From Branchiostoma floridae (taxonomy: Eukaryota > Chordata > Leptocardii > Amphioxiformes > Branchiostomatidae): a DNA stretch of 64,000 nt. The stretch lies in NCBI RefSeq assembly GCF_000003815.2, contig NC_049990.1:4948251-5012250 (forward strand), given 5' to 3'. The notes under the pieces were generated by a model. It was not told the DNA's origin. It searched no databases and worked only from the letters and a program-made list of their open reading frames with translations. Below are positions 3,621-63,845 of this stretch, in pieces; the stretch's first letter is position 1, and each line of letters begins with the position of its first letter. The position numbers were made by a program, and so were the translations under genes.

Positions 3621-3694
3621 ATGCCGTCGAAAGTCAGAGTGGAATATGATGGTGGAGTTTATAGGAAGACAAAAGTACCTAAACGCTCTCAAAG
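3621..3694 (+). CDS. Gene A exon 1
   Basis: Residues 1-25, starting MPSKVRVEYDGG. The in-frame stop two codons upstream makes this a real N-terminus. Donor GTAAGA, phase 2. Confidence 0.85.
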
Positions 3695-6600
3695 GTAAGA
3701 AATATTCAACGACATTCCCGTTTTTTTTTCATTTCTATAATATGTATAATGAGAAAAGTCCTGTTTTTTCATTTCTAATGAGAAAAGTTGTCGACGAAGT
3801 GAATATCTACAATTACTAGTAGTCATAATCAGCACTACTTTATACACCTTACGAATTGCCATCGCTATACCTCTTATAGAAATGTAGCATTAACACATTC
3901 TGTCCTTATGTTACCAATAACACCCCCCCCCCCAGAATATAAGTTGTTTTCGCCGCATAGTATCTGAAATATGTAGTATTCTCCTTGCCACACCATTGCG
4001 CGTGTTGACAAAACATACCCATGGCACGTACACCACTGAAAGTAGACTTTAAAGTTTAAGATCAAGGTAGAAGAAGTTCATTGACCCAGGTAATTATGAA
4101 TATAAATTAAGTCCACTACAATTTGCTAACCCAACTTTTTTACACACTTCTTTAGCATGCCATGCAATTGTGACAATTCTGTGTTTCATTCAGACCATGC
4201 TCTGTGCATTGCATCGGGTTATAACATATTTATTCAGCACTGTGGTTGAAACCAAACATATCTCGCTTCTGCATCGGATGAGACTTGAAAATCCGTCCAA
4301 TGTTATGGTACTGCCAAAGTTATGAGTCTCAGACCAGACGTGTAACGTTAATGGTAGATTAGACGTGTGTTTTGAGTCTTTTAATTCTTTGAATAGGATT
4401 TGCTGAACCGGCTACAATGAGTCTGTAGTATTGTTAATGTTTCTTGTGAATTGTTTGATCAAGGACGTTATATAACGTCCTCGGTTTGATTAAATGTTTG
4501 TTGTGAATGGTTGATGCAGTAGAATAGGATTTGTAGCTCATCTGTAATCATTGGATAAAAAGTTTTTCAAGAACTCCGCAATGTACACCAAGTCTGTAGT
4601 GTGGTAAAGTATGTAACGTTAACTGTCAAACTATTGTGTCAGGTAATGACTAACAATGAAGTAACAAAGGAAACATTATGGGCGTTGTCCGATTGGACAT
4701 AAAACGCATTTTCCTGTCGTCACACAAGGGGATTGACAAACCCACTGATTACGTACTTCCTTATTTGGAGAAAATATCAGTTATGCATTCCTGCGGTAAG
4801 ACAACTTAAGCAACAATTTGCTCACAAATACCGAAATATTTCTTTAACTTCTCTTTTTTACGCGTAAATAAACGGGTGTTACTTATTTATAAAGCCATCG
4901 CGCACCTAAGCAGTGCTATAATGATGTTTCCGTGAGAGGCATTGTGTCCGTGTTGTTCCAAGCACCGCCCTCGGGCAAAATGGCGCCCGGATCCACCTAT
5001 TTCGAACACCCTATCCCGCCATGCCTCGCGCGGCGCACCTTTATGTTGGGACCGCGTATGAATGGTTGCGCAGTCAGGTGTTAAACTGGGCAGAAGGGGC
5101 AACAGGAAGACGATGGAACAAATACCCTAGTAAAAGGAAAGTTCCAGCACCGTGGAAGAGTTGATTTTGCTGACGGATTTATCAACTGAACGTCTACAAT
5201 TTCATTTACCCAGGTTGGTGTCGTCAAGGTCATTCCGATCGTACGAGGACATACGGTATATCGAGAGACCACCGCCAGGACGAGACAATATGGCGTCCCG
5301 TGAGTATGCTTTAGTATCTTCTTTTGCGGAAATTATCTCTTGTCGGAAATTCTAATGACATTCGCATTTACATTTGAGTTTTAACAAGGTCTGACCGTTT
5401 CCGTATCTCGCAGGCCATCTTTAACAATTCCTGCAAAGCTGTATGTTGGATGATCATTGATTAGATAATACGGAAATTGTGCTTCTGTAAAAGCTTATTA
5501 CACTCTAAATGTGGAAGCGTCATGACGCTCTCCTTCACCATTTTCGAACTGAAATAAACGTTTTGCTTCAAAATAAGCAATTTGCTATGATGATTCTTGG
5601 CCGTTCTTGTAGAAAATATCGCTGCGTATCTTAGACTCAGAACCAGGCACCATGACAGTATGAATAGTGTTACACACCTGTAGAAAAGAACCCCTAAGGA
5701 AACGTGTGAACTAGTTTCTGTTTGATCTGCATGACTTCACACAACCATTGAGAGCTTATAACACTGTCTCTACCACTTGATAACCGCTGATGCTGTTATT
5801 GCGGAACAACAATACTCATTTTTAAACCAGATGGCAAGTGTCTGACTCTGCCTCAGTCTCTGCTTCACCGCCATGTTTAATGGATAGGTCGGAATGTCTT
5901 CGGGATGACCTTTTCTACAGGGAGGTCAACTTTCAAGGTTGAACTTCCCTCATTCTCACGTATGGCGAAAATATGAATAATGCCGTTTTCTTTACAATTA
6001 TCAGTCGATGAGTCCCCTGTGTATTGTGCAAAGTATGCACACATACAGCAGGTGTCAGAAAGACAGATTCGAAAGTGATCTGACTATGCAGGTGCTTGGG
6101 AATATCGAATAAGCCTACATCTTTTAATCTTCACCATTATATCACCTTGCAAGTGTTCTTGTTTAATTTTCATGTCCAACATACATTTGAAAGATTTCTG
6201 AAAACGACTTCCCGGTCTGCAGCTCTATAAGACAGTCCTCAGTCCGTGAGAAAAAAAGCCTGGGGTTTATTCAATGTTTTGAATGAATGGCTATGATTGT
6301 CGCAGCGCAGGCCGCCTTACGGGACAGCAATGTGGTCGAACCGGTACGTCATATGATACAGACCCGAAGACCCCCCAGGTGTTACCTCTAGTGCCTAATT
6401 AACGTTTGCTGCTCTTTGTCATCAGGCTTTTTATCTCTATTAGTCACAAACAAACCAAATTAACAAAGATTGTACACGCTATAGCTGACTTAACGATAGT
6501 GATTGCCCTAAATCTGCCGTAATTCTCACTTTTTTTACGGCTGGACAGCCAAGCTGAAGATCATTTCACATAGAGGTATATTTCTAAGCTTGAGATATTC

Positions 6601-9600: not shown

Positions 9601-9724
9601 GGGTGTCCATCTATCAGAGACACGGAATCAGTAGGAAAACGCTTCAAGTAGATGAGTGTAATTATCTACATCTGATTAATTTCCCCTAGAAGGTTATGTG
9701 TTGCATAGCTTTGTATGTATTTGT

Positions 9725-9815
<91 letters not shown>

Positions 9816-12800
9816 AGACCAACATAACTGGATGGATTGTCTTGATATTTGGTATGTGGGTATAGACGTCGAAACGATTACATTTTGGGCTCCCTAGCAC
9901 CTTACTATGGTACTACAGCGGAACTTCCAGGTTTCATATCTCGTTTTATAATATATCTGACGTTCCTGCTCCAGTGTATAACGGCCGGCGCTGGGACGAC
10001 AGGAACGGCGGAGACTGGATGACCGCAGGCCTGCCGGACACCAGGAGGATCGTGGAGCTGGACGACGATAGGTGAGGATAGTTTTTTTCCATCTCCATTC
10101 TACTTCCTGGTTTTCTCACTACAAAGGTTCCTAAGGTAACTATTTTTCGAACGGTCAGACATCTCATATAGTATTCACTGCATTTTCTAAGCGACCGAGG
10201 GAGTCACTTAACTTAGTCACTGTCGATGAATGCTGTCTGCAGCCAGATACGTCTGACAGTTTACAAAACTTGTCCAGTTGCTCCAGTAAGTTTTGTAAAA
10301 GATCCGACATTTGATATAATATTCACTGCCTTTCGGTAGTGACAGAGACAGTCAGTGATTTACTACCACAGACGAATACTGCAGTCTGACACGTCTGACC
10401 CATTTTATCCTTATCCAGTTGCTTGAGTAACATTTGTGCTCAGTGTCCCATTACCTGAATGTGTAACGTTCATCGACGTTCTGGGTTATCTAGGATTATA
10501 ATAGATTAATAAATTGTTATAAAATAGGGCATGAAGGTTGGGTCCGGGAGTTTTTATAATGGTTTTAAACTTCTATACTATAGGAAGAACGTAAAGTGAA
10601 GCAGAGATTGATAGGAGCTTCTTGGAAGCCCTCACCAACCCCACAGGCGTGTTCCTTAAATAGTACAAGAGCTTTCTAGATGCTTCAACTAGATAGATAT
10701 TTAAGAGGCCACTGATAACACATCACTCTATTATATTGATTCACCACATGAGCATTATTACTATTAGCAACTACTTAATATACTCTCTCTTTCAGAGCTG
10801 TCCTTACTTGTGGTTTATATCCAATGTTCAGCAATTTTACAGCTGGACGCATCTTTAGACAGTTTTTCTGTGTTGTGACATAGTTGGCCTTGACATCTGC
10901 TCCCAAATATGACAAGATGGATAAATAACAAAAGATCTGTCCGAGAAGAGGATAACACAAATACCGCTGTAACAACTAGCTTAGGGGAAGGACGTTTCTT
11001 CGAAATCATTATTGTAAAATCATCGTATGAATGGGAAGATGATATGGGTTTATATACAAATTGACCAGCCATGGTCACTATAAAATGCGGGTCTTTAGAC
11101 ATGTTAGATTATAGATAATTCTACCAATTTTATCTGTCACGAAACTGAATAATGATCAACAATGTCATATATCAGTACCATATCAGCCATTGTGCCATTA
11201 AATAGATATACATTGTGGAAAAAGTAGACAAATACCTTTCCTATGACATCAAAATAGAGCCATGTTATTGGCTTCTGATAGCACCTACTTTGGAATTTAT
11301 TTCATGGATTCGTAAAAGTTTTCAGCAAGTGAAATATCTAGCAACAATGTAAAGACATTATCTTGAATGTTCCAAACGAACAAAACATTTACCCTAAAAG
11401 CACCTTAATATCTATTTACCCTGTTGCTATTACCTGTCATGGGTGCGGTTAAGAACGTGTAATAGGCAATTAAGCGTTAAAATGTTGTCAGGGCGTCTCC
11501 TTTTCTTGACGTACACACACAACATCGTTTAGTCACTTCATTGATTGCCATACAAATGTACATATGATCTGATGCGTTAATGTCCCCTTACATACAACTC
11601 AGGTTAACATTCACCTGTATTTAGGTAGTCTTGGGATCTACATGTCTTAAAAGCTATTAGTTAACGCTACAATTGAACAACATCATTAAGAAATGAATTA
11701 CAAGTGCAATACCTTAGGTACACACAAAGAGACATGTATGTAAGCATACAGAGGAACTACAGTAGTGTGGATTTATGAATGATGCTGGTAATGCTATTTT
11801 TAAATGTTCTGACACCTGACGAAAAACAACGGACATTATTTGAAACGTCTGACCGTTTCCAAAATCATATTTAGTTGCTCGAGTAACTGCTTTTGGGCGT
11901 ATCTTATTACCTGGATGTCTAACTTTCATCGAAGAGTACCGTAATACTATATGCTGATAAGGTCACAACATATTTTACACACTCCGTCGATTGCCATACG
12001 TAATGGCTAATGTCTTACCGCTCCCTGTGGGAATACACTATATTCGGCAAGAAATTGGACATAGAAGTTTTGCTGGAAAATGTTCTTTCAAACATAACAT
12101 AACACAACATAACATCATTGCATAACATTGAATTCCTAAGGGAGACATGAAATGAACCTCTGGTGCAGCTTTTATTTGCAGCTATCAGCTCCATATGCCA
12201 TGCTACTGTAGACAGTTTATATCTAATATGGAAATACTATGAGCTATCTAAATTGATATCCTGTAGTTTTGTAAGTTTTTTTTTTGTTAGGTTCTGAAAT
12301 GCCCTTGTTCTGCTATGTCCAATATCTTGCCACTACTGGAATCCCCTGCAGTCTGCTGTCCCATAGAGTGTTCGTGCCCGCTAAACCGGAAGACGAACCC
12401 TCGCCGCCTCAAGAGCTGCAAACTGACCACAAAGATCCCAACATGCCCAATGAGCACCTTAAGAGGTAGACTCGACAGGAAGCCATACAGCCAGAGATTG
12501 ATGTTGTGTTTTTGTAGCTATTTGTAAGGGTGTCAAAATGAACACAACACATAAATGTACTGACCGAATAGCACCACGTCAGCAAGCATGAAAAAACTGA
12601 CGGCTGTCACTGCCTCAACAAATTTATTTGACGTTACGTGTAGCACTTAAAGAACAGGAGCCACTCCAAGACTACATGCACATGCACCCTACTACCACCA
12701 AAGACTCTCAACACCGTGTACCATTTCACACTATTTTCCAAGTAATGTTTAGATGAACGATGAAGCACCAAATGCAATTCCTGACATGCCTGCCTGTCAT

Positions 12801-15800
12801 GAATGTCACAGTGCACCTTCACGAATGTTAGAATAGATAGACATTGGCCATCGCCATGCACATCGGTGTACGTCTATCACTATTCACATTGGTGAATTTT
12901 GTAGTTCCATCACCATGCACATTGATGTATGTTCATCACTATTCACATCGGTGCATTCGTACTTCCAACACAATGCACTTTGGTACCGGTGTACTTCTAT
13001 CACCGTGCACATTGGTGTAGTCTATCACCATGCACATTGGTGTACTATCTGCACAGTGCAAATTGGTGTGCTTTCTTCACCATGCACATTGGTGTACTTA
13101 CTACCTTCTTCTATCCAAAAGAGGTGTGGCATACATGTACGTTGATTTCCGGCGGTGAGTCCTATTGTTAACAATCACGTTATGAAACGTTTAACCATGC
13201 ACACTGCCAGATGATTCTTATTCAACAATCCACAATTATCATCTTTCAGGGATGATCATCTTTCAGTCTGTCAGTGAATATGATACAAATGCATTATGCA
13301 TATAGCCTTATTTGGTGTTTGCACTCACGTGATCTTGACGTAAGTACTGTCCACCATACTGGATGGTTACGCATGGAAGTTACCAAGTCATTTTTTTCAA
13401 ATTTTTCAAATTTTGTAATGCAATTACAGCCATGTCCTATAAGTACAAACTAAACAACACTTCTTCATACAATTCAAGGTTATACCATCCATCGTGACGT
13501 CTTTGAGTTTACGGCGTGGTCACATTCGTCGTGTGTCCTCGTGCGATTTTGCTGTAGTAGAAAGTTAGACAGTAGACTTTGTCAGAGACAGAGACAAGCC
13601 TTAAGGATGTGAGGCAGTTTTTCTTCTGCAATAAGATGGTTTGAACTTTGTTAGACGTGTGACTATCCCAAGTATACCCTCAGTTTGACGGTGATCGCAA
13701 GTTTGTAATCATGCAACGATCGCATGACGTATGTGATCGAACCCTTAACATAAAATTACCCTTTGTACATTATAATACATGTATTCAATTATGACAACTT
13801 CTCATCTCCAGGCAATCCACCAGGAGCACTGACCGCCCGAGAGGTCCAGTTTACTCCTTCAGCACCCCGCACTACCCTGCCAGCCATGACTCGGAGTCGT
13901 TGTACAGTCAGCCCAAGACGCGATATGTCCAGCCGACAGCTTCAGCTTACGCTGCCAAGGATGACAGGAGCCTGGTCACATTCAATGGTCTCCCCAGTGA
14001 GTAGATTCTACAACCATTTGACCTTATAACTTTAGCTATAGATGCTTGATTCCCAGTATACCAGTTTGTCTGTTTCATGTGCCAATGGTATCATGATCAT
14101 AGTTGGCAACTGTTCCTAACTAGAGGTAGTTTAAAAAGTCAAAATACTGTTAATGTTCGGAACTAGAAATATTTTGAATGTCAAAATACACACAATTGTT
14201 TCGAACTCAATGTATTTTGAATGTCAAAATACACATCATATCATGCTGTGCATTGTAATACTGTACTATACCACCAGACGTAATAGCAATCATTACTGTG
14301 CAAAACAGTGACATTTGTTAATGTGCAATGCAAGATTTCCTCTCCAGACGTTATAATGCCTACCTTCTTTGGACTATGATTCAATTGGAATGCTACCTTG
14401 TGATCAAAACAAAACCAGGCCATTTTGCTAATTGTGTAATGTATCAAACAAACCAGTCATCTTTGTGTTTGTTTGTTTGTTTGTTTTATTTACTTAACCA
14501 GGGGTAACATATCTCCTTTTCTAGGCGCTTTTCAATGGGCCCTGGGGGGTGAGGGGGACCCAGACATACATATACATGTACATACATCATCATCATCAAA
14601 TAAAATAAGAAGTAACATAACATGAGAAAATTATCTTTGACGCATATAACAGTCAATAAAAATCATAGCAACTTAGGAATAACCAATACATAATATCATT
14701 CTACGATACAAGTCATTACTGTTATGTCTTTTTTTTTATTCACAAATAACATTACAACGCATAAACAAAAGGTGAACCATCCAAACCATATAAATCATAT
14801 ATACAAAGGAAAAGTAACTGTTATATAAAACATAAATCAAACAGAAACTGATGTAGCATTTGTAACTAACACTATACTGGTATGTCTTTCCAGCCACCAT
14901 TCTGAAGGCGAAGGTGATGTACCCTAACCAGGCGTTCGCACAGGGGGAGGGGATCGGGAACGTGCCGGTGGGGAAGGAGGCTCAGTTCACTGTGGACACC
15001 ACCAGGGCAGGGGATGCCGGGATAGACGTCGACATCCGGGGTAAGCGAGAAATCCGTTGTTTCTATTATTGTCAATATTAACATTTGTACGGTAGGCAAC
15101 TTGAAAAGGTGTCCCTCACCTGTTTTTGCCTCCCTACCATTTTTGTGTATGGTGAAGTTCAAATAGAGAAACAAATAATATTGAACAAATAAAACCAAGG
15201 TCAAGGACAAGATGGCCGCTTCTCTGTAACACGACCATTCGAATACTTGATCCTGGAATCTTATTACAATTTTCTAATACATATTCAGCATAGGATCAAA
15301 AACCCTTCATGTTTACTTAATCATTCTAACACAACTGCTATCATAATGATGTTTCAAATAGAAAGAGGAGACAGAACGTTTGACTTTTTTCTTTGCAGGC
15401 CCGAGCGGAAGAAATGTGCCATGTCAGGTGACCGGAGATGGCGTGTTCAGGTGCAGGTACACTCCGACAGAAGTGGGTGAGTTATCAGACCTTACCAGAC
15501 TGTTTATATCAAACTCAAAACGTTGTTCATAGAATGTAGTATTTCGCACCATTTTCACCCTTGCTCGGTTTTCAAGGTTGGACCTAGAACATTTCTACAT
15601 TGATAAAAAGCTGTACAACGGTTATCTCTTTTTGCGAAAGAAGTTAGTTGCGCAATTGTATCGTGTTTGACACAGACGCTAGGAACCTTTAAGTCGTTCA
15701 CATTCCGACTCGTATGACTGAATGATTGATGGATGTCATTGCTGACCAAGCGGTCCTTGTTGACTGAAGAACGAACATGAAGCACTTGAATAAGCACGAG

Positions 15801-18800
15801 GATCAACTTAAAAGATTCAATTAAAATGAAACTCACTCACTCAGCCCTCTACGGTACCAGCTGGTACGTGAGGCATCAGGAAGTCCCTATATCCCTGTCT
15901 GTCTGCAGAAATTCTGGATGCCTCGTCTAGGGAAAACATCCACTGTTTACCTCCTTCTCTATGCAGCGTCTCCATCAACATGGCAGGTTTTGTTTTATCT
16001 TTATTTTTTCAATAGGAGCCCATCAAGTCGGCGTGAAGTTTGCGAATGAGCACATCCACGGCAGCCCTTACCAGGCTAACGTGTACGACTCAGGACACGT
16101 CAAGGTGAAGGCGCCTGAGGTGGTGCAACTGGAAGACGAGGCCACAGTAAAGGGTAAGTCTTACAAAACATTGTATTGATATGCCCTTGAAATTAATTAG
16201 TATATTGCTGTAGCTTATTCCTTGAAGGGTGAATATAGTTGAATGAAAGGAACTACAACTTCAGTTCTGTTCACTTCATCCTCGTATGAGGCTCATTAAC
16301 GATGTCCGACCACGCATCTCTGTCTAGCATGGCAGTTAGCAAGTTGTAATCCTACAACTACAGCTAACTACAACTTTAAACATTGATTAAGGAATGATAG
16401 TACAACCATATGGTACTTGTTGAAACTCTGCGAGTCACGCATCTCGGTGAGAGCAAGGAAGGCATGTTTTCTACGATGTTTGTACCTGGAACACTGGTTT
16501 AAATACTACATGGAGAATCGCTCAACACTGTGCGAAAGGGTGTCATTTCCGGACGTTTCTATGTTTGTATACATCCGGATCGGGACCGTTTCTGGATATA
16601 TCCGGACAATATCCGGACGAAATCTGACATGACTCCCCTGCGTTTTCGGAAAATTTCAGGAGTCCGGAACGGGACCATTTAATTCCTGCCTCATATCCGG
16701 ATTTCCGGTAATGGAACGTTTTCGGACTCTTTGGAGACAAACCACGTTCCGAATATTTCGTATATATCCGGATAATTTCAGAAGTCCGGAACGGGACCAA
16801 ATAATTACGTCTCATATCCGGATTTCCAGTAATGGAACGTGTTCGGACTCTTTGGATACAAATTACGTTCCGAATATTTCGTATTAATCCGGATAATTTC
16901 AGGAGTCAAGAATGGGACCATATAATCATGTCGCATATCCGGATTTCAAGTAATGGAACGTTCTAGGACTCTTTGGAGACAAAACACGTTCCGAATATTT
17001 CATATTTTCTGAGCGCGTTCGGGGCTATTACGCCCCGGAAAGGTTGCATAAACTTTTCAAAGACTTTCCTGTATAAATCAGATGACACAAGTATCACAAC
17101 AAATACATTATGTGGAGGAACAGATCATGTTAACGTCAAGGGGCAAATCAATATGCATTTGTCTCTTAGTCTTACCAAGGAAGTTTAAGCTCACTACAAC
17201 CTCATTGGTCTTCACAAAAAGTGAAGCTCGAATGAAGCCAAAGTTAAACAGTTCACTGTCAGATCCAATAATATCAAGCCCAAGTCAATAACATCATAGC
17301 AAAACTGATCAGTTTAGATGTACAATATCAAATGTACAGTATCCGACACAAGTCTAACGTTATAAACCATACAATCAATATTCGTAGGATAAAAATGTCA
17401 TTACGAAATCAGTACGACAGTCCATTTTCAAGTCCTCTATAAGTCCGTATCGTGTTGACTGTGGAATCATCGTCCGGGGCGCCCTCTTCTGCGTCTTTGT
17501 GGTAGTGGACGATCATTGGCGACGGAAGATGCTCTGGCAAGACCCCGCAATATCGACGGCACGTCTCGAGGACAGTCCGCTCCATTGCATAGTCCAGGCA
17601 CCGTCCGTCTTCAGAGTAGAAACAGTTCTGGCAGGACACAACGTCACCGGGCACAGACTGTCGTAAGTATTACCAGGAGGTAGGCCTCGGTCGTCGGCAT
17701 GGCAGGACAGGCGATTGGGAAACAGAGGCTCAGCGGCTGGAATGGAAAAAAAAACGGCTAGTAACTGCCCCGAACCCATGAACGGTACATGTAAAATTAT
17801 TCAAACAACACGGCCATAAAAATCACAGCAGGACAAGACGGGGACAAAGGCAGGAATCTGGAGTCGGCTATCATCAAAGGGTGCGGGCCACACAGATGGC
17901 ACAGATAAGGACCCCCAGAGAACGAATGGAATTTTATATGCACACAATCACATTGGTCCTAGTGAGGAGATTACAGTTTCTCCTTGGTTCTATTAAAGAT
18001 TTAGCCTGCCAGCCAAAACAACAGGACAGGAAAGTTTAGAAGCAGCCGTTACGGCACTTACAGCACAAAATAATATGAGAATTTAACTAACTATGGAACG
18101 GGCAATTTATAAACAAGCCGTCGATGACACGCGGGGGTTCCAGCTGAAAGAGAAGCTATCTATCATACAACAATCTTTACAAAGAGATCACACTACTAAC
18201 TATTAAATACACAAAACACTAGGAAGGGATAACAGACATTGCTGACAGACATATACGGAACTAAGAACGGTAACTGCTATGTATATACAATCTATGTACT
18301 AGAGAGCTACACTACTCACTTCTTGGTCCGGTAGCGGCTAGCGGCAGCGACAACTGAGATTCAAATCTAGTTTCAAACCTAACTGCTGTCACCAGCTGGT
18401 CTACTATTGGTCTAGTCAAGTCATGTGACTTCCTAATATAGTCTTGTTACCTAAGGACTCCTCCAGATGGTTCCAAGCAAGTTAGTGTCATCCATCATGC
18501 CTGTTTCACGGAAACACATGGCATTGTGCATTATTTTTGTGAATAAATGCATCATGTACTTACCAGTTTCAAAGTTGTACACAGCAGCAAACGCTGTGGC
18601 GCGGTGTAGGCTGTTATCTGCAACGACTGCCCCAGTAGGCGCACCGTTGACATGCCAACGTACTGGTCTGCTCGGCACTTTGCACAGCTTGCATAACCGC
18701 TTTACGAGTAAAGTTGCCTCGTGATATTGTCCGGATATGGGCCATTCCCACACAGCAACGCTGGTATTCAATATCATGAGTGACTTTTTGTCATGATATT

Positions 18801-21800
18801 GTCCGGATATGGACCTATCCCAAACTGCACCGCTGGTGTGGAGTGTTTTGACTGAACTTTTTCAAGATATTGTCCGGATATGGACCTATCCCAAACTGCA
18901 CCGCTGGGGTGGAGTGTTTTGACTGAACTTTGTTCAAGATATTGTCCGGATATGGACCTATCCCAAACTGCACCGCTGGGGTGGAGTGTTTTGACTATAC
19001 TTTATTCATGATATTGTCCGGATATGGACCTATCCCAAACTGCACCGCTGGGGTGGAGTGTTTTGACTGAACTTTGTTCAAGATATTGTCCGGATATGCA
19101 AAGAAACAATAATACTTGACTCATAATTGTTACCATCGCAAAGATTGCTTTCTGTGTCATTTGATTGTAAATGTCGATGTCAGTATATTTGCACATGTAT
19201 ATGGAAGCTTAAGCTTCAATTACCAGAAAATTAAAGAGTAAACATACATTGACATCGGGCATACTCGTTGTAGAATAAAAACACAAATACAGAAGCAAAA
19301 ACGTTAATGACGTGTATTTGACAAGATAGGAAACCTTTTTAAGGATACCCAGCAAAACAATCTCAGATTCATGTATGACAAGAAAAGTAATTTGTTAACC
19401 ATTAAGTTGTCCGAAAACTGATCTCTGGAATGTTTCTGTTTTGGACATCTGTCGTAAATGGAACGGAATATGAATTCGGAAGTAGCGAAAGTTTCGGCAA
19501 AAAATGCAGTCTTATTTGTTCAGATGCGCAATAAAACAATCACCGATTCACAATTCACGTATAGAATACCTTTATCGGTAACGGTCAGAATATGCTAACT
19601 TCGAATCTGTCCTAAAACTAATCCATGGAATATCTGTCGCGGATATGTCTCGTAAATGGAAAGAAAAGAAAATAGTATGAATTCGAAAACATGAAACGTC
19701 CCTGACACGTATTCGGAAGAACGGGAAATTCTATCCGTCCGGGCATGTGCTGAAACATTTCATGACTCATGATATTCTGAGACATAATGAATTGAAAATG
19801 TCATCTGACAATGGCCCAGAAATAATGCACATCATGCTTCGTGCAAACTCCTAATTTGTCCGGGTATTCCTTATCGAAATATATGGACCTTGGATATGTA
19901 AAGAATGTAGAACATATTACGTATTCGGAGGCAAGAAACGTCAATGGCGCGTATCTTGAAAAGCAAGAAAGTCTTATTTGTCCGGATACATAACAAGACA
20001 ATTCCTGACTTATGATATTTCCAGATATGGGAAATATTGAACATCGTGCCCGGACACAGTCCGAATATTAAGCATGTCCAAAAATATGTCAACTCCGACT
20101 TTGTCCGGAAATCACACCCTTTCGCACAGTGCAAGTTCCTGTGGCTTGACAAACGTCAGACCACTGACCACCTTATCGTCCATCGTCGTTTGCCATCCAC
20201 ACATTTATTAACAGTTGCTATCAGCTTGTATAAGGCCTATTGTCTCCCCCTAACGCATCCCCTCCATAGTTGACGCTGAAGCCGCCGGAAGGGGCAGACT
20301 GGAGGCCGAAGTCCTGTCCTCCGGCCACAGGGTGCCGTGCCGGGTCCTGGAGGAGCCGAATATGAAATACCAGATTAAGTTCGTTCCCAAGGTGTGCGTG
20401 CCGCACGAGGTCAAGATCAAGTACAACGAGACACTTCTGCCTGGTAAACTACGCGTTGGTGTGCGGTATTCTCACTCGGTTAGGGTTCACAAAAACCCTA
20501 GCACACGGCAGGAATATTGATCGTCAAGGAGTCTGCGAGTGCTAGATGACATATTTGGCAGTAATACGTCCTGTGTTCTCTTAGTCATCGCGCGATCTTC
20601 AGGAATCGGTCGACGTTCGCAATGATAGATTTCCATGCAGAAAATATGCGCGAGTGTGATTTTGAGATTCGGCTACTTTCTGCGATCTGGCCATCATCGA
20701 ATACGGCCCAAATTCGTCGAATATATATCACAGAGACTTCACTTCAAATCAGGCCCATCTCGGATAGATCTGTACCTGACTGATCTGTAACTGTCTTTTC
20801 ATCGGCCGTTTTTTGGCGACGCCTCTTGGACGGAAAGCTGTGCAAAATGGTCTACAGTAAGTCAAATTGTCAGGACCAGATAAAGAGTGATATGCGTTTT
20901 AGGGAATTCCGGACCCGGACCGAGTGAGAATACTGTACGGTTGTTGGGGACCTGTCTTAGGTGATGTGATGTGATGTGCGGTGTCCCATCTCACTCCCCA
21001 ACATCCCAGTGTCGTGGATATCTTTTCATACGTCTCGTGTGTCTTAACAAGAAGCCTTTTCGGTCTTTTCTTTTAACAGTACTAGTGTCGTGGATCTTAT
21101 TTCCTATCCTTTGTTTTCATCATAATTATCCTATCTTTATCCCTGTGTGTTGTCTTAACCGAATTATTTCAGAGCACAGCACCATTGAAGGCGTTCAGAA
21201 CTACATAGTGCACTACTTCTACCGTACAGCTAACGCAACAGCACAGTTTTTTCTCAGTTCTGCATTCAGTATGTTAGCTTTATGCCTTTAGGTGTCTAGA
21301 TGTACAGCACTTCACTGGAGATACCACGTTTTTAGCGCACTGCGTCTACAGTACAGCCAACGCAACAGCACAGTTTCTTCCTTTGGTCTGTTGGCTTTAT
21401 GCCTATAGCTGTCTATATGTACAGCATTACAGTTTTTACAAGGCTGTGTCCATGACAGTATGGTCTATTGTCCATAGGGAGCCCATACAAAGTGAAGGTG
21501 TCTAACCTACAGAACGTGTTTGCCTCCGGCGAGGGTCTCGGGCGCATCCCAGTGGACAGACCAGCCAGTTTTACCGTGGACGCCACCAGAGCCGGGGACC
21601 CCAACCTCGGCGTGACAGCCAAAGGTTAGTTGAATTACTCTTTTCCTAGATGTCTCTGATTATCAGAACACAGAGAATTTATACCTTAGCCTGTCTTAAG
21701 GTAACAATGGTCTAATTTATAGCCTCCTTCACCGGCCTTGGTTGAAAATTGCGATGACTGCCACCCCCCCCCCCAACAACTTACGCCAATGCCCACAGAT

Positions 21801-35698: not shown

Positions 35699-36170
35699 TT
35701 AGAAACGGCGCGGTCCATTAGGGATACCATTGACAGGGTAGTACGACTCCACAGACGACATCCTTCGGGCGGGTATTCTATCCGGTAACGCCTGTTTCGG
35801 CACGACGTAGTTACTGGACAAGACCTGGGGATGGACCGGGGCGGAATTATACTGGATGATCTTATCCCCGTGGGGCCTGGCGGGGTTTTGATCGGGGACT
35901 AGAGCTAGACGATAATCCGAACCACTTCTGGGTACAAACTCGGGAACACCTCGAGGGACGTAGTCAGGAACGGGGTAGTCATACATGATTGTTTGGTCGA
36001 GGGGGAACGCCATCCGGCCGCCGATTTGGTTGGGAACGGGTCTGCCGACGGATAGGACCGGGGACTGAGGCTCGACGTAGGTGAGGGGGTTGGCAGCCAG
36101 GGGGCCTTCGTACACAAGGTTGGAGGGCCGCGTCCTCTGCTGGGGCTGGGGTGGTGGCTGCGGCGGTGGA
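35699..36170 (-). CDS. Gene B exon 21: Pro-rich tail
   Basis: Residues 906-1062, starting PPPQPPPQPQQ and rich in Pro, Val and Tyr (MYDYPVPDYVPRGVPEFVP), ending PNGPRRF. No similarity to the gene A tail beyond proline content. Encoded on its own exon after a phase-2 intron. Confidence 0.9.
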
Positions 36171-45100: not shown

Positions 45101-48100
45101 GGCAAAGATATTTGTAGGTTTTCTATTCTATTGCTACCTGTGTTTTCTGGAAAAGGACCCAACAAGAAAAGCTCAGTCTACGTACTAGATAGGTCCTACA
45201 GTACGTCTAATAAATACGGTGAGTTCAACTGAATAGTTTTGTATGTTCTACAAATATATACGCGATGATATAAACATCTAGACTGGTTGCAGAAATAGCT
45301 ATTTGTAGTTTGTCTTTCATTGCATATTAATGGTATTGGTCCTTTGTTTTTTATCTTTGACTTCGTGAAAACTCAATCTTTTACTTCTTCTTTTTCCATC
45401 CCAGCTACTTGTAACCAAATAGCCTCCCATTGCCGACTGTTGAATTACCTAGGTCAGACAGACGATTACATAGAATCCCCTGTGATTACTAAATGGCTGT
45501 GCATTACTTGTCTATCCCAGTGACTTGATTACTTGTAATAATGTAAGCCTCTAGTTGACTCTTTCATAATCTGGAAAGCAACATCTATAGTTAAGAGACA
45601 GAAGAGTATTTTGAATACCCCGAGACTAGGATATTGTTGTGAATTACTTGTCTATCCAATGACTTGATTACTTGTAGCAATGTAGGCCTATTTATAATAA
45701 GGAAAGCAACATTCTTAGCTATTAGACAGACGAGTAGTAAGAATCACCAGGGACGAGGATGTCGTTGTGTTTGACGAAGATCTCGTGCGGCCGGCCCTCC
45801 TGTGGGGTGAACCTGAGCAGGTACCGGTCCTTGTCTGTAGACTGGAGGTAACACGGCACCTCCTTACGGGCACAGGCTACCGCCGCAGACAGGGTGCCCT
45901 TCCCGGCTTTGGTGGCATCGACTGGTGGGAGAGAGAAAAATATACCGTCAAATCTACACACCACTCCATGACCAAGAACATGTAATTTCACTGGAGACAG
46001 GATTCTTACGGCTTGTGTCAATATATGGGACCACCAAGAGTAATTACATTGGTCAGGTTGTCTGTACAGGTTGGCCATTGTTAAGATGTTTTGAATCATT
46101 TTGCAACCCTATCATTTTTTTTGTATCATTTTTCCATCTTTGTGTCTACCTACCTAGAGAATAGGACAGGTCGAGGGACAAGATAAGTGTTTCGGCATCG
46201 TTTTTAAAGTTGTTAGATTCTAATGAAATGTTTAATATATCCATAGTTTCAATATTAATAACAAACCGACAAACAATATTAATAAACAACGGTAAGTTCG
46301 TGGCAATATTACATTATATGTGTTTTGTGAATGGGAGAATTTGGGTCGTTGTTGACAGGTAAAGCATTTCAACGGTTGCAGTCACGCTATCTAACCTTAT
46401 CGACTACGATAATCACAGGGTCTGGTAAATTGATGACGGAACGGATTTATGTGCACGCGAGTGGTTCTAAACAGTGACGTCACTCACTCGGCACGGCAAC
46501 CTCCTGTCCGATGTCTACCGGGTCATCGATCGGGCCGACTCGCACTGCGCTTGCGTCGAACACGTAAGCGGTGAAAGGGCTGCCGGGAACGGGGTCACCA
46601 GAGAAGTTGATGGTAATCGTGTGGGGTCCTGGGAAGGAGAGAGAAAATTGTAATATGTGCACTAGGAAAAGAAATATTATAATAACTGATGGAACAGTTG
46701 AAATTCGTCCACTCCAGACTAAGTGTAGCTATAATGACACAGATAACCATATAACATTTCATGCAGTTGTCATTGAGTAGTGTCACAAACAGTTAATATA
46801 TAGTTTTAGATTTTAGATCTGGGGATTTGTTTAGAGAGATAGCCTTTCAGATGTTTACATGTATTTCGTTAAGTCATGAGATAAATGTTCCGAAATAATA
46901 TTTCTTGTCTGGAAAGAACTACCAGCTATGACAAGAGCGGGCATGTATTTAACTCTTTTTATATCTTACTATTTCATGTACAATACTTAGAATACTAGTA
47001 TTGTCATTCTATCATGTCAAATTTCACTTGTATATATTATCCTTGTCTCCGTCAGCAAGGCTAGCCTTTTGTAATAGCCACAGGCTTAGTTGGGCAGACC
47101 TGGCTGTGCGCGCCAATACATAAGAATAGCCAAATAAAATAATTTTTTCAAAACGGCGTCATCAAGCAATCTGTTTCCTGACATACTCCAGATACCAGAT
47201 AGCATGGGTATCATCCGGAATGTAGTTCGCTCCAGCGTTTATCATACACTATATACAGCTGCAGTCGCTTCTAGCTCTGACATTTATCAAACACTACACA
47301 ATCGCTTCTCTTATGTTCTCTGGGTAGCAGAAGCGAACATAATAATAATCTTTATTGCAAACTCATGCAAACAATTGCAAGAATACATGAAAGTACAATG
47401 ATGGTAAGGGCACTGAATGGTATGCAATAACAAAGTGGACATTAAGTGAAATAGGGGTCATCAACTAGATAGACACTTCTTATCTAAAATGAGTGCTATT
47501 GGGTTTGATTTCTTTTCTGTATGCAGTGGAGGATAAAATAGGAGCAAACTACTGCCCAGATGATACCCAGGCTAGAAATGCACGCGTTGACCTGACAAAT
47601 CGGGCGATACGTACCCACTTCAGACGGTATGTAGGAGCAGTCATAAACACCGGACCCTGTGACCTTACATGGTATCGCCTGTAGAGTGGGACCTGTGGAA
47701 GACAAAAGACGACATTGTACCGCTGTGCCCATAAAACGTAAACCCCAGAGGGTACAACAAGCAGCGGGGATAATTACACGATACTCTTCACACGTCAACT
47801 TCTGGACAGACATGATCAAAGAAACGATTCATGTGTCATAAATTAGATTTGTTCCTTAGAATTGCTAGATATCTTCAGCTGTGGTTCAGCTGTTTGTATG
47901 TTCATTGAGTTGCCACTCATTGTATCCTTTATAATTATCGTGCAATGAAGTTCTATGTGTTAATGCTCTTTCTTCCTCGCTTATAGACTGCTTAGTGTGT
48001 TTCTAGTCAACACAGTCTGAAATAAATGCATGCTTTTATAATGGCCTGATTGCAAATTCATGCTAGATGGCCAATTGCAAACGAAGCAAGCCAATGTAAT

Positions 48101-51100
48101 AAATGCAACGTGTGTATACCTCACAGAAAAGTCTATAAATACCTAACTAGTTTAAAGATTAATTAAGTATGCCAGATCTATTTCTACATAAGCTATCTGA
48201 AAGGCTTGATTTATTTTCTTTGATTTATTATCTTATACACTAATGTTACATAAAATAGATCTATTCCTGATTGATTGATGTGATATTGGTTATTTTTCTT
48301 ACTTGTAATGTTGATGCCGAGGATCCCGCCCTGCCCGGCTCGTGAAGTGTCCACCGTGAAGTCTGTGACATTGTCTACGGGCAGGAGTCCACTCAGCCCC
48401 CGCCCCTGGGCCGTCACCTGTCCGCCGTCAATCACCTTCACAACGAACGGGTTACCTGCGGAACACATGCCAAAAATTAGCGTCACGTAAACCACGCGTT
48501 GTCAGTTTGTTTAATGTAAACATTAAACTACTCTCTTAGATGACACTTTGTGGTCATCTCAAAATTCCAGAGCAAGCAAGCAAAGTAAACATACCATTGA
48601 AGCTTTAGCGTGTATGACTTTCCAACAATACAACTTACAAAACAATTGGGTATGTAAATCAACGATAAGATATCCCCATCACTTATCGTTAAACGTTCTG
48701 AGGATGGGGAAAATGTATGGTACAGCAAATCATGTATAAAGCTTTTGTGTCTATTTATGCCAGGTGTACATCGTTTGATATAATGTTATTTTGATTTATC
48801 ATTATAAACAACAAATCTAGTTGACCATGCCCCCAATAAGAAGCCTAAAAGTAACAGACCTTGGGACAATACATTCCCCAACCCCTACCCAACAATTTGT
48901 CCGGCGGATATTACAGCTTCACACCTCGCACAATTACATTCAGTGAACTCGATAAGTGGCCAGGATATATGCATGCCCTGCGGTTGTCGTCACTTTTACA
49001 GTTCACGTCACACAGACTTCAGACGATTAGACTCTGGGTCAAAGCATTCCGACTATGTGCACGCACGCTACCGTCTGGTCGATAAACACTCTGTTTACTA
49101 ACAACATACCAATTATATGGTATATGGCGATGCTGAGTTACTTTATATATGTCGAAAGTTCGCTTTAGTTGAGACTTAAAATGTCTGCGATATCGTCAGA
49201 TTAACGCTAGAATATAAATGAAAGTAGGTTGTATAACATTCCATTTGAGGTCAAATTCTTTTCATTGTGACATTGCATTGTTGGCGATCGATAAAGTCTT
49301 CACTGTCCTTGTTGGTCTATCAGATGTTGCACTTTTTTTTGTTCTTCGTTTTTTTTCTCAAACAGAAGGCAAATCTTGTAAGAATTATACATTGCTATTT
49401 TTTCTATAACATGTAACTTTTGTGCTTTTCTTCTATTTCAATATTTAAGAAGCGCAAAAAATAAGTAACAGTTGGTTGAAGAGACCTGGACGAACAAACA
49501 TACAGACAGACGAACGAACGAACAAAAGAACGAAGCAAAATTGATTAGTGTCAATTGTTATCTAAACCAAATGAAATGTGCATATATTATAAATGTCAAG
49601 ATTTGCAAAGAAATTGGTTATGAAATTAAGGCAACCATTGAACCTTAAACGGAGACAAACAAAGGTAAACAAACAAACAAACAAACAAAAACAAGTACCT
49701 CCGACATGATTAGACCTACCGCCCACATCTTGGTCCCCGAACTGCACGTCGATGTTGTGAGGTGTGGGAGCGTTTGGAACAAATGTCAGTAAATATTTCC
49801 CATCACCCGCCTTGGTCAGCCGGCTAGGAACCGGGCCGCTCGGACCATTCATCGTTATTAGAGGGTCCCCTATAGAGAGGATTGGTGGTGTTAGTGTGGT
49901 TTAGAGATGAAAGTGTAGAAGGAATTGAGTTAGTGTTTTACATGACGTGTACAATGTACACAAAAGCAACCTGGAACCTGGAAAATTGAAAGTTATGATA
50001 ATTCTAGAGCCCGTTTTCTTGTTAACAGACATTATTATGAAAATTATGAGCCACAACCACTGATTGTTAAAGTTTATGGACACAAATAAACAACGAAGAA
50101 GCTAATGTTGTCTTCATTTTTGTGACGTAATGTATCATAGATGTGTAGAAGTTGGCATTCTTACTTCAATAGATTACCAATTCAATAGATTACATTTTCA
50201 ATTTCATTGTATTTCTTTTACATCAAGATGTATAAATATCTCATTATCATGAACAATTCTTGTGAATGTGTTTTATCCATCTACACACCAATAGGATAGC
50301 ACAGCTAATATTCCTTGTAATCTACCATGAATAAATGTTGTGAAGTATGACTGCTGTGAAGTATTACAAAAGGAACAATAACCAGTCTACTACTCTTAGG
50401 GAATGTTGGTAGCCATGTGTGATAATCGTGCGACCTTCAACTGCGTTTATTTAATAGGGACACCTCCATGTCAGTATGGATGGTTGAAGGACGAGACAAA
50501 GGACAGTCTTTACTGATAATGGCCACCTTTGTACCTGTATCTGTGTGTAGATACTAGTAATTGTATGAGTGAGGCCCGGAACTGAGTACAGTTTGATATG
50601 CTGACAATGACCCCCCTTTGCCTGTGCGTTGGTACATACATGGCTGAAGGACGAAACAATGGACAGTGTTTACTGATCATAATTGCCACCTTTGTACCTG
50701 TATCTGTACCTGTACCTGTGTGTAGATACTGGTAATTGTATGAGTAAGGACTGGAACTGAGTACAATTTAATATGCTAACAATGACCAACCCCCCACCCC
50801 CTGGCCTGTGCGTAGGTAAATATACGGCTCAGAAGGACGAGACACAAGACAGTCTTTACTGATAATGGCCACTTATACCTGTACCTGCATCTGTTTGTAG
50901 ATACTAGTAATTGTATGAGTGAGGCCCGGAACTGAGTACAGTTTTAAACTTTATGGTGATAATGACCCACTTTTATAACCTGTGTGTAGGTACATATATG
51001 GATGAAGGACGAAACTAAATACAGCTTATACTGATTATGACCACCCTCTGTCATTTTGCCTATACCTGTATGTAGATAAATGTACAGACAGACATGAGTA

Positions 51101-59738: not shown

Positions 59739-59971
59739 CTATCTTGATTTGTCAAAACTTGACCTGGTTGACCGTCTTCTCTGTCGGGATTTTTCGTAAG
59801 ACTTCGCCTCGTCCGAAGAGCCGAAGACGATGACCTCAAACGGGCTCTCGTTGATGTTCTCTTCCGACCATTTGATGGCGATGACGTATTTGCCCACCAT
59901 CTTGGGGGTAAAGTTCACCGCGACTGCGCGGTCCTTCTCCGGCAACGGCCTTGACTCTAGTTTGAACGACC
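59739..59971 (-). CDS. Gene C last exon
   Basis: GSFKLESRPLPEKDRAVAVN, YVIAIKWSEENINESPFEVI, then a basic tail with SRQRRRSTRSS. The basic stretch could be a nuclear-localisation or phosphorylation segment (inference). Frame continuous to TAG. Confidence 0.93.
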
Positions 59972-62900
59972 CTGGGAAAAGTTTTAAAAACGTCAAAAGA
60001 TTTAAACCTAAACAAAATAGATTCTGCAAAAATGATTTCCCTTGTCAATAGGTATACACATTACTACTTTGATCTTACGAATAGGACGGTAATCTTTAAA
60101 TTTGGTTCTCAAAATCAAAGTAGAACACCGTCAAAAAGCCACTTTAGTTGACAAAGACATCGGACACAGTTGCCGACACAGCTGAAAAGTCTTCTGTAGC
60201 AGGATTCGGTCCGTAATCATGTGTGACAATGCCGCCAGTGTTTCTGTGTAATAGTGGATTTTCCATTGTTACACTTATTACTTCCAAACAGGTGAGAAAC
60301 AAGGTGTGCGGCGGATGTTTGTTGAATCTTTGATCTGCTCTTTTGTGTGTTGCATTAGCCACCTGGGACAACACAAACACCGCTGTCGACGTGGGGTACG
60401 TGTGTGCGTTGGCTTGGGCGCATGGTGGCGCAATTTTTGTCAAGGTTAGCAGTTGTCATACACCTTTCTCACGCGGCGGCCATGATAGATCGAAGAAGAG
60501 GTCAATGAGGCAAACAGACAAAACTTATTTCTAAAATCAGGTCCCATTTAGTTTTCCCCCAAACCACACAAATTTTCATGATATAAGATAGAATAATAAA
60601 TATTACAAGAAGTGTTATGCACCGAAAGATGTAGCAATTTAGAGTAGTGTAGACTGACCCCATAGTCCCTTAAGAGATGCAAAATAAAAACATAATAATG
60701 CAAATTTTTAACGAATTTGCAGCCATTCACTTATTGGTCGATTTCCTAATGGCAGGCTACCATTGGTCGAACTGCTAATTATGATGGACAGCCTTTTGTT
60801 TGCCACATTGAACTCGTTTTAGATCTATCATGGCCGCCGCGTGAGAAAGGTGTATTGAATGCTCTAGATAGGATGCCTTATGAAATGACTTAATGCACTT
60901 AATATAATTTCTTTGCTCGAGTAAAATATACTTTAAGAGACTCGATGCCGTAAGCAGATGTCAATGTATCGTAAGAAGTGACAACCCACACAACGCAAAT
61001 GTAGATAAACACCGATTCTTCTTCAAAAGACCCAATACTAATTAGCGTAACTGTGACAGTATTGTTGTCAAGAAGACCTGAAATGGCCATGGAAAGAAAA
61101 ATGCTTCATTCTTAACAACACATCAACATGATTTTGAATGAGTCAATGTAAACTGGCTGCATCCACCTCTATCTCTTTCCCTTTGCTCCCCCTATATATC
61201 AAGTCAAGTAAGATTTTATGGGACCGCGTGGCACGATCGGGAGCGCGTTGGTCTCAGGCCCGAGAGGTCCCGGGTTCAAATCCGCTTACCGTGTCACCGA
61301 TCTTGTGCCCTTGGGAAAGGCACTTTACACGACTTTCCTCACCTATCTCAGGTGTAAATGAGTACATAGCTGCGGCTAGTGGCAGTGACAGGCCTTTGTT
61401 GTGGTGACAGGCCATAGGGGCATGTTCGGGCATGACGCACCCGCCATGATACACGAGTCAGGGGTAGGAGGAACCCCTTACATCCTTGGTCGGAAGTCCT
61501 CCTAGGAGATGGAAACTCCGAACAACAAAGCCAACGGTATGGTGGCTTTGAAAAGGCGTCTTTGACACCTGTTTCGCCATACCCTCCATATGTATATGGA
61601 GAATATCAATAAAAAAAAAAGGCAAAAATATGTAGAAGTATAACGTAAGGCGAAGCGCTATTTATGACGTCTACTGCCTAGTTACATTAATCTAGTACAG
61701 TCTACACATAGATTCTAAACAATGCAATGCAAACGGTGGCGAACCACTGTCAAAGGGATGAGTGAGTGAGTGAGTGAGTGAGTGAGTGTGAGCCAGTGGG
61801 TGAGTAAGTGCAATGCAAACTAATAACTTGTGTTCTCCCCTCCTTACCAGGTTTGGGCCCGTCCACCTTGATCTGCAGCTTGCCGGGCCCCGCCCCTGCC
61901 GTGTGCACCAGGAAGTTCCCCCGCCAGGAGCCGAGGACGCCGTGCTTCAGCCCCGGTCCGAACGCCGTCACCTTTTTGGCATCGGGACCTCCTGAACTGG
62001 TCGGGACAGGGGCGATGTCTACTGCAAACGGGCTGCCTGTTGAATGACGACAATTTAAAAGAAAAATTAACCACTGCTCACAAAAACGCTTGTAATGATT
62101 TTAAGGACAATTCTATCGTTCACTTCTCGGGCCAAGCCTTTCCCACTTGCCAAACACATCAGTTACGATATACATTTAGCTAAAAATGTACACATGTACG
62201 ATGTACGAATGTATGATGTCACAAGAAAGGCTGGTATACCTTGTTTTTCAGCACAGTACAAAAACTCTGTACACATGCGCATACAATCGGTTTGTTAGAG
62301 ACTTTGATTATCATGTTATTGTCCAGGTTTATGATCAAAGTAGTTTTTACCTGTAATTTTCTCTCCATTATATTTGATGTCAAGTTCATGTTTCCCAGCT
62401 TCCTTTGCCCGAATCTTCATCAGGTAGACGCCATCTTCCTTCTCTGTCAGCTGAACATCTGCCTTTCCGTTCGGTCCTAAACAACGCGCCTGAAGCAGGC
62501 CTGGAAAGTACAATTAACGTTATATTACACATTAAAACTGACATATCTTGAAACGACTTACTATATGTCGTCATAGTCACACCACCATGTTAGAAATAGT
62601 TGGTAAACATTTGGTTCAGTTAGTTTCTTTGCACCCGATCAAATGTGCAACGTTAACAGAGTGTCGGAGAAAAAACGTGATGGTTTTTGATGGGGATGTT
62701 GCGTGAGGTTAGGTTTAGATTGAGCGAGCTGTGGGACACATCCATCATACTGATAGGGGTGTACCATGTGTCAGCATTGCTAAATGCTCAAGATCTCCAG
62801 GGAGTGGGGCTGACCCAATATACCAAATGGCAAACAACACAGATATCTATGAACATCTATGGCTTGATTCTCAATCTGTAAAATTGAATGCTGTTTTATT

Positions 62901-63845
62901 CTTCTCATAACTCTTATTCCATTTTTAGGTGATACTCCTGTTCTATGATGTTCTTTTTCACTGAGGGAAAGACATCGGATGGTGTCTGAAACGCCTGATC
63001 GTTTCCAAACCATACCCAGTTTCTTAAGTAACTGCTTTTTGGCGCACTCCTGTTTCTTAGAAAGCTTGTGCTCTATATATTATGTTCCTTAGAACTCATG
63101 TTCCATGTTTCTTAGAAAGCATGTGTTCTATATTCCTTAGAACCTCTGTTATATGTTTATTAGAACTCCTGTTCTACTGTTCCTAGAACTCCCGTTTTTT
63201 CATGCTTAGAACGTTTTGCAATGACATTTCACTGTAAACATGCAACATTTCATCCTAATAGTATGTTTTTGCTGTAAAAACTCTTGTCCTTACCCCCTGC
63301 CCCAGCGTCCCGTGGGTCTATGGTAGCGCGGATGGTGCTGCCCAGCACGGCTCCTGTGATGCCTGAGAACCGGACTCTGCTCACGTCTATCGTCTTCTTC
63401 ACGTTGATCTTGAAGGGAGAACCGCGGACCTCAGCTTCGTCCCAGGTAACGTGGAGTCGGTAAGACCCTAGTAATAGGAATGGGAAGCCATTCTTAGACC
63501 ATATGACGATTTACACTTTTTTAAAGCTTGCATAGATACATAGACTCTGGTAGTAAAAATGCGTAATTAAACGTTTCCCTCATTAATGAAATTAATAGAA
63601 TAGAAATGATTACAGTATCGGATGGACAACAATGCCCACAGGTAAACCTTTACCTATAAGTTATCATTACTAGTACTACGGCCTAGGCTGTCATAATCAG
63701 ATATTGTATGATGTGGCAAGAACGAGTGGTATACCTTGTTTTTCAGCACAGTACAAGGCCCTGTACTTGTCCCTTTTCTGAGGGAAGGGCATGAGGGTGA
63801 CTTCCACCTCCTCTTCCCGTCCTCTCAACACACACATTGGTTCAC
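59739..63845 (-). CDS. Gene C: filamin-repeat protein, last five exons (5' end outside window)
   Basis: Third paralog, same strand as gene B and upstream of it. Exons 5' to 3': 63845-63735, 63467-63294, 62500-62351, 62036-61848, 59971-59739; all introns phase 1; 284 complete residues visible. They correspond to gene A exons 20-24 and gene B exons 16-20/21, covering the last three Ig-FLN repeats. After the last repeat (ESPFEVIVFG) comes a short tail of about 26 residues rich in Arg, Ser and Lys, then TAG at 59741-59739. There is no Pro/Tyr-rich tail. Whether the 5' part carries CH domains cannot be seen. Confidence 0.92.
60461..60852. mobile_element. MITE with 31-bp inverted ends and TA target duplication
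   Basis: CACCTTTCTCACGCGGCGGC... at 60461 is the reverse complement of the sequence ending at 60852, matching for about 31 bp. Both sides are flanked by TA (60459-60460, 60853-60854), as for Tc1/mariner-type elements. 392 bp, no transposase. It lies in gene C's last intron. Confidence 0.85.
61219..61620 (+). mobile_element. tRNA-derived SINE with A-rich tail
   Basis: The head has a tRNA-like layout with a near-perfect RNA polymerase III B box GGTTCAAATCC at 61273-61283 and an A-box-like GTGGCACGATCGGGAGCG about 50 bp before it. A body with the SINE-like word CCCTTGGGAAAGGCACTTTA follows, ending in CAATA plus A10 near 61620. Inserted in gene C's last intron, antisense to gene C. Not a functional tRNA gene. 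Confidence 0.82.
61756..61810. repeat. (GAGT)n microsatellite
   Basis: Repeated GAGT units, near the penultimate gene C exon; similar to the array at 38010. Confidence 0.9.
61848..62036 (-). CDS. Gene C penultimate exon
   Basis: GSPFAVDIAPVPTSSGGPDA, AFGPGLKHGVLGSWRGNFLV, AGAGPGKLQIKVDGP. 189 nt against 171 in genes A and B: a small in-frame insertion before the strand A region. Confidence 0.92.
62213..62272 (-). pseudogene. Ghost copy of the gene C exon 63735-63845 donor edge
   Basis: On the minus strand about 30 exon bases ending in CTGTGCTGAAAAACAAG, the donor GTATAC and 25 intron bases are repeated here, 1.5 kb from the source exon, with most bases identical. No acceptor or full frame, so not an exon. 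Confidence 0.82.
62351..62500 (-). CDS. Gene C exon matching gene A exon 22
   Basis: LLQARCLGPNGKADVQLTEK then IRAKEAGKHELDIKYNGEKI. 150 nt as in both paralogs. Confidence 0.92.
62946..63047 (-). mobile_element. MITE fragment, 35519 family
   Basis: Contains CTGATCGTTTCCAAACCATA, then CAGTTTCTTAAGTAACTGCT and TTTTGGCGC, the right half of the foldback element. Confidence 0.6.
63046..63205. repeat. Minisatellite, about 32-36-bp unit
   Basis: Variants of TTCTTAGAACTCCTGTTCTAT recur about five times, alternating GAAAGC and GAACTC forms. Confidence 0.75.
63294..63467 (-). CDS. Gene C exon matching gene A exon 21
   Basis: YRLHVTWDEAEVRGSPFKIN then GSTIRATIDPRDAGAG. The x-I-x-x-I/L-D-P-R motif is kept. 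Confidence 0.92.
63735..63845 (-). CDS. Gene C exon matching gene A exon 20
   Basis: GEPMCVLRGREEEVEVTLMP then YRALYCAEKQG. A copy of its 3' edge and donor lies at 62213-62272, on the far side of the next exon. Confidence 0.9.

Follow-up and report, generated by a model that had tools for sequence, protein, structure and literature searches.

Three CH domains are a hallmark of the worm filamin FLN-2 and of fly jitterbug, and FLN-2 of Caenorhabditis elegans also yields two products, FLN-2C and FLN-2D, that lack the actin-binding domain (ABD) (PMC3143143). At the fly neuromuscular junction, the postsynaptic side is organised by FLN90, a filamin isoform without the ABD (PMC5173320). ABD-less filamin products are therefore already known as isoforms, and what appears to be new, judging from sequence, in the 64 kb window of the amphioxus Branchiostoma floridae described here (C12:4948251-5012250; 41% G+C) is a group of separate ABD-less genes allied to three-CH filamins. 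A literature search turned up no account of jitterbug-type or CH-less filamin genes in amphioxus, and earlier notice is possible. Plain positions below are those of the window, which is the whole stretch analysed; C12: and C5: mark contig positions, and genome-wide searches covered 513,431,437 bases in 431 contigs.

The window contains two filamin-like genes, A on the plus strand and B on the minus strand, plus the 3′ end of a third, C, on the minus strand. The repeats of A occupy 14894-30990 with a stop at 31500, B runs from 49869 to a stop at 35699, and the visible end of C runs from 63845 to a stop at 59742. A and B are convergent, with 4.2 kb between their stops, and C lies upstream of B in tandem with it. 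We put at about 0.72 the probability that these are separate CH-less filamin genes, each with its own tail, that share ancestry with a long filamin such as the gene G described below, the CH domains having presumably been lost and the products putatively serving as scaffolds. A, B and the window part of C pass the curated Pfam cut-off for Filamin (PF00630) and are thus filamin repeat proteins, with 11 matching stretches in A (E 1.1e-174), 10 in B (1.4e-145) and three in C (5.4e-39). A hidden Markov model of the human repeats alone recovers 39 of the 3396 open reading frames (ORFs) of the window at E≤0.1, against 0 of 3396 after shuffling. With human FLNA repeats as query (the FLNA sequence used throughout was entered by hand) 42 window ORFs match at E<10, one of them judged a chance match and one a partial exon copy; a supposed Ig remnant at 3479-3565 (E 5.2) was set aside as chance.

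The closest relative that we found is G, at C12:21552564 to about 21650985 on the same contig, 16.6 Mb from the cluster. It encodes three CH domains (E 7.5e-54 for the three Pfam stretches, 3e-11 for the third by itself), together with a linker rich in Pro and Tyr and 40 repeats that could be recognised; we count about 41 because most of one repeat, R8, is absent where a 3.4 kb gap of Ns lies (C12:21644296-21647669). Its rod is laid out as 18 two-repeat modules, usually of four exons each, followed by a five-repeat C-terminus that we number R7-R11 as in gene A; repeats 13 and 29 were split by hand, and two modules lack one exon in the model. The repeat number is nearly double that of vertebrate filamins. 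By its three-CH architecture and exon style G looks like a jitterbug/FLN-2-type filamin. A, B and C retain three, two and four modules, respectively, together with the same five C-terminal repeats, and they look like old shortened relatives of this jitterbug-type giant.

Kinship with G is carried by the C-terminal repeats. R7, R9, R10 and R11 of A, B and C match G37-G40 one to one (12/12), which places the four genes in one family, and for all 12 of these repeats G outscores every human repeat and all seven filamin ORFs of a CH-bearing locus on C5, with a margin over the human repeats of 17 (R9 of A) to 122 (R11 of B). The ranking against FLNA uses a BLOSUM62 score matrix and is not a phylogeny. 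R8 is the exception to the one-to-one match, since the assembly lacks most of this repeat in G. All seven C5 ORFs, which represent part of that gene, are nearer human FLNA than G, and the classical filamin of this genome is thus distinct from G. Repeat for repeat, A and B are collinear from R7 to R11, a region in which amino-acid identity is 42-47% among A, B and C and 42-50% when G is included. Identity at codon positions 1, 2 and 3 is 0.62, 0.68 and 0.39 between A and B, and 0.63, 0.70 and 0.41 between B and G; from these values and the 42-50% identity we conclude that the genes are old copies under purifying selection. An initial annotation of the window had described paralogous filamin rods with collinear exon sets, 11 repeats in A and no detectable CH domain, and all of this is borne out. 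Its yardstick was the classical 24-repeat filamin, which is the wrong one, since the nearest relative is the three-CH giant that it missed.

The trees give a less uniform picture of how the three genes arose. In a tree without outgroup that included a further locus, D (described below), A, B and C split from D and G (88/89), and A and B from C, D and G (93/89). With human FLNA included and D omitted, C joins G (81/70) against A and B, with support of 8/43 for the FLNA branch, and in a topology test a grouping of B with G is not rejected (p-AU, from the approximately unbiased test, 0.055). In an unrooted module tree, modules 2 and 3 of A fall together with module 2 of B (93.8/88) and with module 13 of G (88.7/81); module 1 of A adjoins module 1 of B weakly, and the deeper branches are weak. 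The trees thus differ in where they place C, and a single local expansion, as proposed initially, is possible on this evidence.

Searches for CH domains at the cluster gave nothing. The human FLNA ABD finds no window ORF better than E 0.79 and nothing at E≤0.5 in 184 kb around the cluster, whereas the same query finds four ORFs at G (E 1.6e-15 to 6e-5). The CH1, CH2 and CH3 domains of G, which recover the exons of G by construction, give a best match of E 0.86 in the same 184 kb. Genome-wide, the 55 Pfam CH matches at E≤1 include exons preceding the C5 filamin locus and a third C12 locus, and none lies near A, B and C or near D, at 11.74-11.84 Mb of C12. A match of a G-linker query to the A exon at 23375 (E 0.0037) was taken as an Ig match, the query ending in Ig sequence. 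A, B and C therefore show neither the N-terminal ABD of two CH domains of a classical filamin nor the three-CH ABD of jitterbug and FLN-2, which G has, and we file them as CH-less relatives of such a gene rather than full jitterbug/FLN-2 members.

In other respects the genes combine features of several known systems. Three CH domains and repeats divided among many small exons are traits that G shares with FLN-2 and jitterbug, and the small-exon, long-insert style extends to the cluster, where most repeats span two or three exons and C has a 126-residue insert, while A and B have no long insert inside the rod. FLN-2 differs in that a single gene, of about 23 repeats, gives rise to the ABD-less forms as isoforms, against separate ABD-less genes and the much longer G here. 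FLN90 likewise offers a filamin rod without the ABD as a scaffold (PMC5173320), a role that can be extended to A, B and C by analogy; it is a cheerio isoform, whereas they are separate genes with new tails. Human FLNA, FLNB and FLNC share with A, B and C the Ig-FLN repeats, and R8-R9 resemble their repeats 18-19, but they have 24 repeats and CH domains, whereas A, B and C have 9.5-13 repeats, no clear dimerisation repeat and added tails. TRIM45 and TRIM71, both among the PDB matches, also carry an Ig-FLN repeat without CH, but proteins of that type have a single such repeat beside other domains and not a rod.

Within that comparison, R8 and R9 best match human FLNA repeats 18 and 19, and R10 and R11 are not best with 20 and 21; R9 is most like human repeat 19, and R11 is like repeats 9, 19, 17 and 12. 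The PDB matches to FLNA chains are collinear, a chain of FLNA repeats 3-5 scoring nearly as high (93 vs 109 bits). The 20-24 repeats with a dimerising last repeat expected of a classical filamin are not seen, repeat number being the clear part of this difference; R11 was rejected as a clear dimerisation repeat, human repeat 24 ranking only 7 of 24 by mean score, although R11 of A itself is nearly tied (152 vs 155 for the best). The last repeat of FLN-2 is likewise reported to be without likeness to the dimerising repeat 24 (PMC3143143).

Exon structures were predicted with a simple dynamic program whose training set was the exons of the window itself. Gene A consists of three two-repeat modules and R7-R11, its repeats 1, 3 and 5 being mutually alike, and repeats 2, 4 and 6 likewise; all 19 exons preceding the last have AG/GT borders and lengths divisible by three (phase-1 introns). 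Its parts, all on the plus strand, are:

3621-3694 (+), candidate first exon (MPSKVRVEYDGG...), unproven, with an in-frame stop two codons upstream
9975-10071 (+), likely 5′ coding exon (YNGRRWDDRNGGDW...), open frame, coding score 12.7
13812-13996 (+), Ser/Pro/Thr-rich exon preceding repeat 1, coding score 7.4
14894-20458 (+), module 1, repeats 1-2: exons 14894-15040, 15399-15476, 16016-16153, 20270-20458
21478-23057 (+), module 2, repeats 3-4: exons 21478-21624, 22135-22365, 22878-23057
23424-24874 (+), module 3, repeats 5-6: exons 23424-23570, 23987-24070, 24385-24522, 24695-24874
25307-30990 (+), R7-R11: exons 25307-25453, 25976-26101, 26488-26739, 27669-27851, 28418-28525, 29067-29231, 29719-29868, 30108-30278, 30839-30990
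30991-31500 (+), tail of 169 residues, Pro/Tyr/Arg/Asp-rich, then stop; coding score 58.5 (other frames 5.6 and -15.1)

The boundary between R11 and the tail was placed by hand, and the exon at 22135 spans two exons that are separate in B. The exons at 9975-10071 and 13812-13996 match no Pfam family at E≤0.1. The N-terminus of A had been called proven, on the strength of the stop upstream of 3621-3694; the stop exists, but the exon scores -4.2, with no coding signal in its frame, and ends in phase 2, which fits the exon at 13812 and not the better supported one at 9975. The model favours an ATG at 3649.

Gene B has 9.5 repeats, made up of a half repeat, two modules and R7-R11. AG/GT borders and lengths divisible by three hold for all 18 exons preceding the R11 exon, which has AG/GT borders too but passes on a different phase.

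49720-49869 (-), earliest exon recognised, coding for the second half of an Ig-FLN repeat; donor at 49720, alternative donor at 49699
45748-48455 (-), module 1: exons 48455-48303, 47692-47615, 46628-46488, 45921-45748
42691-44626 (-), module 2: exons 44626-44480, 44226-44143, 43476-43339, 42864-42691
36740-42308 (-), R7-R11: exons 42308-42162, 41821-41699, 41082-40936, 40592-40488, 40259-40083, 39690-39580, 39189-39019, 38612-38463, 37758-37588, 36896-36740
35699-36170 (-), tail exon of about 157 residues, Pro-rich, then stop; separate exon after a phase 2 intron, coding score 26.9

The end of the exon at 38612 was moved by hand from 38412 to 38463 to match the paralogues. That B starts inside a repeat, as first described, holds: its first recognisable exon is a second half only, no first half was found, and the model resorts to an internal ATG at 49852.

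Gene C had been seen only at its end, and the short basic tail described for it stands; the gene itself extends 23 kb past the window to C12:5035677 and comprises four modules, the insert and R7-R11, 13 repeats in all, with some exon ends rough. The insert, between the modules and R7 (C12:5016307-5015906), is Pro/Ser/Arg-rich with repeated RFEPNS units. In the window and around it we find:

61848-63845 (-), C exons spanning the second part of R9 through the first part of R11: 63845-63735, 63467-63294, 62500-62351, 62036-61848
59742-59971 (-), C last exon, with the end of R11, a short basic tail (26 residues) and the stop
C12:4899262-4936979, stretch upstream of A with a predicted UCH (ubiquitin-hydrolase) gene, exons to about 4928330
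C12:4936231-4936979, weak TLC-domain match between the UCH gene and A (E 0.0013, below the Pfam cut-off)
C12:5046759-5049769, two-CUB gene upstream of C

The gene finder had joined C to the CUB gene, fused UCH, TLC and A exons and extended the end of G, and these models were cut by hand. The upstream neighbour of B is C, and a single transcript of C and B was rejected as requiring an 8-base exon. The three tails differ, as the initial annotation had it: those of A and B align with a score of 50 that 1342 of 2000 shuffles match, so that they are alike in composition only and not diverged copies of one tail, and homology of the C and G tails was also rejected (113 of 2000 shuffles as high, not significant). 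Its observation is largely right and more than chance, and its interpretation is partly supported, the role as non-actin scaffolds and the tails as separate outputs being putative.

It is conceivable, if unlikely, that what we see of A, B and C is only the 3′ portion of longer genes whose CH exons lie far upstream or are too diverged, the CH-less products then being isoforms of the kind known from cheerio and fln-2. ABD-less isoforms are a known pattern (PMC3143143, PMC5173320), and the 5′ ends of all three genes are predicted ones, with B starting in mid-repeat; yet neither FLNA nor G CH queries find a CH domain in the 50 kb that precede the window or in the 46 kb leading up to the first Ig exon of C, other genes are predicted in between (from the hand-cut models, the TLC match being weak), and C sits upstream of B. 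That the three are pieces of one ordinary filamin gene, broken or misassembled, is highly improbable: C and B do lie one behind the other, and a model can be forced to join them, but A, B and C each have their own R9-R11, at 42-47% identity over R7-R11, C has its own stop and tail, and both the three-CH G and the CH-bearing C5 locus exist elsewhere.

There is a slight chance that we are looking at decaying tandem duplicates, as the absence of CH domains, the few modules and the partial exon duplications might suggest. The canonical splice sites, the constraint at codon positions 1 and 2 and the coding signal in both long tails speak otherwise; the open frames weigh less here, openness having been a requirement of the models. 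Descent from the classical FLNA/cheerio/FLN-1 lineage with loss of the ABD would account for the match of R8-R9 to human repeats 18-19 and for the collinear FLNA matches in PDB, but it too is improbable given that R7 and R9-R11 are nearer G than FLNA or C5 in 12 of 12 cases while the C5 ORFs side with FLNA in seven of seven, that R10 and R11 are not best with human 20 and 21, and that the chain of FLNA repeats 3-5 does nearly as well (93 vs 109 bits).

Several points nevertheless tell against separate CH-less genes related to G. Two of the CH exons of G itself reach only E 0.2-0.3 genome-wide, and small or diverged CH exons could escape such searches. At R8, G has no useful margin over C5 and FLNA (96, 96 and 95 for R8 of A, repeat A8; 114, 101 and 96 for that of B, repeat B7). 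For A, B and C the 5′ end is a prediction from sequence, with B beginning inside a repeat, the subfamily call is drawn from the three-CH architecture and exon style of G rather than from jitterbug or FLN-2 sequences, the C5 comparison covers only part of that gene, and the tail motifs were judged by eye. Human filamin rod repeats are moreover reported to bind actin weakly, so that a CH-less filamin need not be an actin-free one.

If A, B and C are indeed separate CH-less relatives of G, ancestral CH domains would have been lost from them, and by analogy their products could act as force-bearing or signalling scaffolds with no actin cross-linking through CH. The Ig repeats would serve as docking sites for membrane or signalling partners, and each gene's own tail, Pro-rich in A and B, would recruit differing partners of the SH3, WW or PTB kind, a mode like that of fly FLN90 and worm FLN-2C/D but from dedicated genes rather than isoforms. 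Human repeats 9, 12, 17 and 19 belong to the ligand-binding class, and partner binding by the rod is plausible given the resemblances of R9 and R11; we infer, again by analogy, that the tails would be the likeliest site of gene-specific partners. An ABD-less filamin function provided elsewhere by isoforms would then be fixed here in separate genes, which separates rod function from ABD function, these genes having apparently retained a selected rod while lacking CH; in fly and worm both forms come from one locus and are hard to separate genetically. The family also shows that a filamin of about 41 repeats can be formed from a regular two-repeat module. There is about an even chance that ABD, rod length and C-terminal output vary independently in the jitterbug-type family, which would here comprise a three-CH giant and at least three, perhaps four, ABD-less genes with two, three, four and perhaps at least nine modules and dissimilar tails.

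The possible fourth gene is D, on the minus strand at C12:11.74-11.84 Mb, which was seen only in a 7 kb stretch (C12:11740501-11747500) and may be a further CH-less copy. In that stretch we recognise R8, part of R10 and R11, along with a QVPPP-rich open frame, nearby proline-rich stretches and a different tail; nine matches at the locus are of the even-repeat type, and a tenth reads through a stop.

Short tandem duplications overlap filamin exons or splice sites at 21943-22240, 27796-28058 and 43451-43693. The ORFs at 21943 and 22107 are 88% identical in amino acids, duplication periods are 138 and 120 bp, and such duplications are perhaps the raw material of exon duplication. Minisatellites are present in introns and intergenic DNA, with periods of 121 bp (16647-17005), 72/143 bp (18723-19098) and 175 bp (50480-51078).

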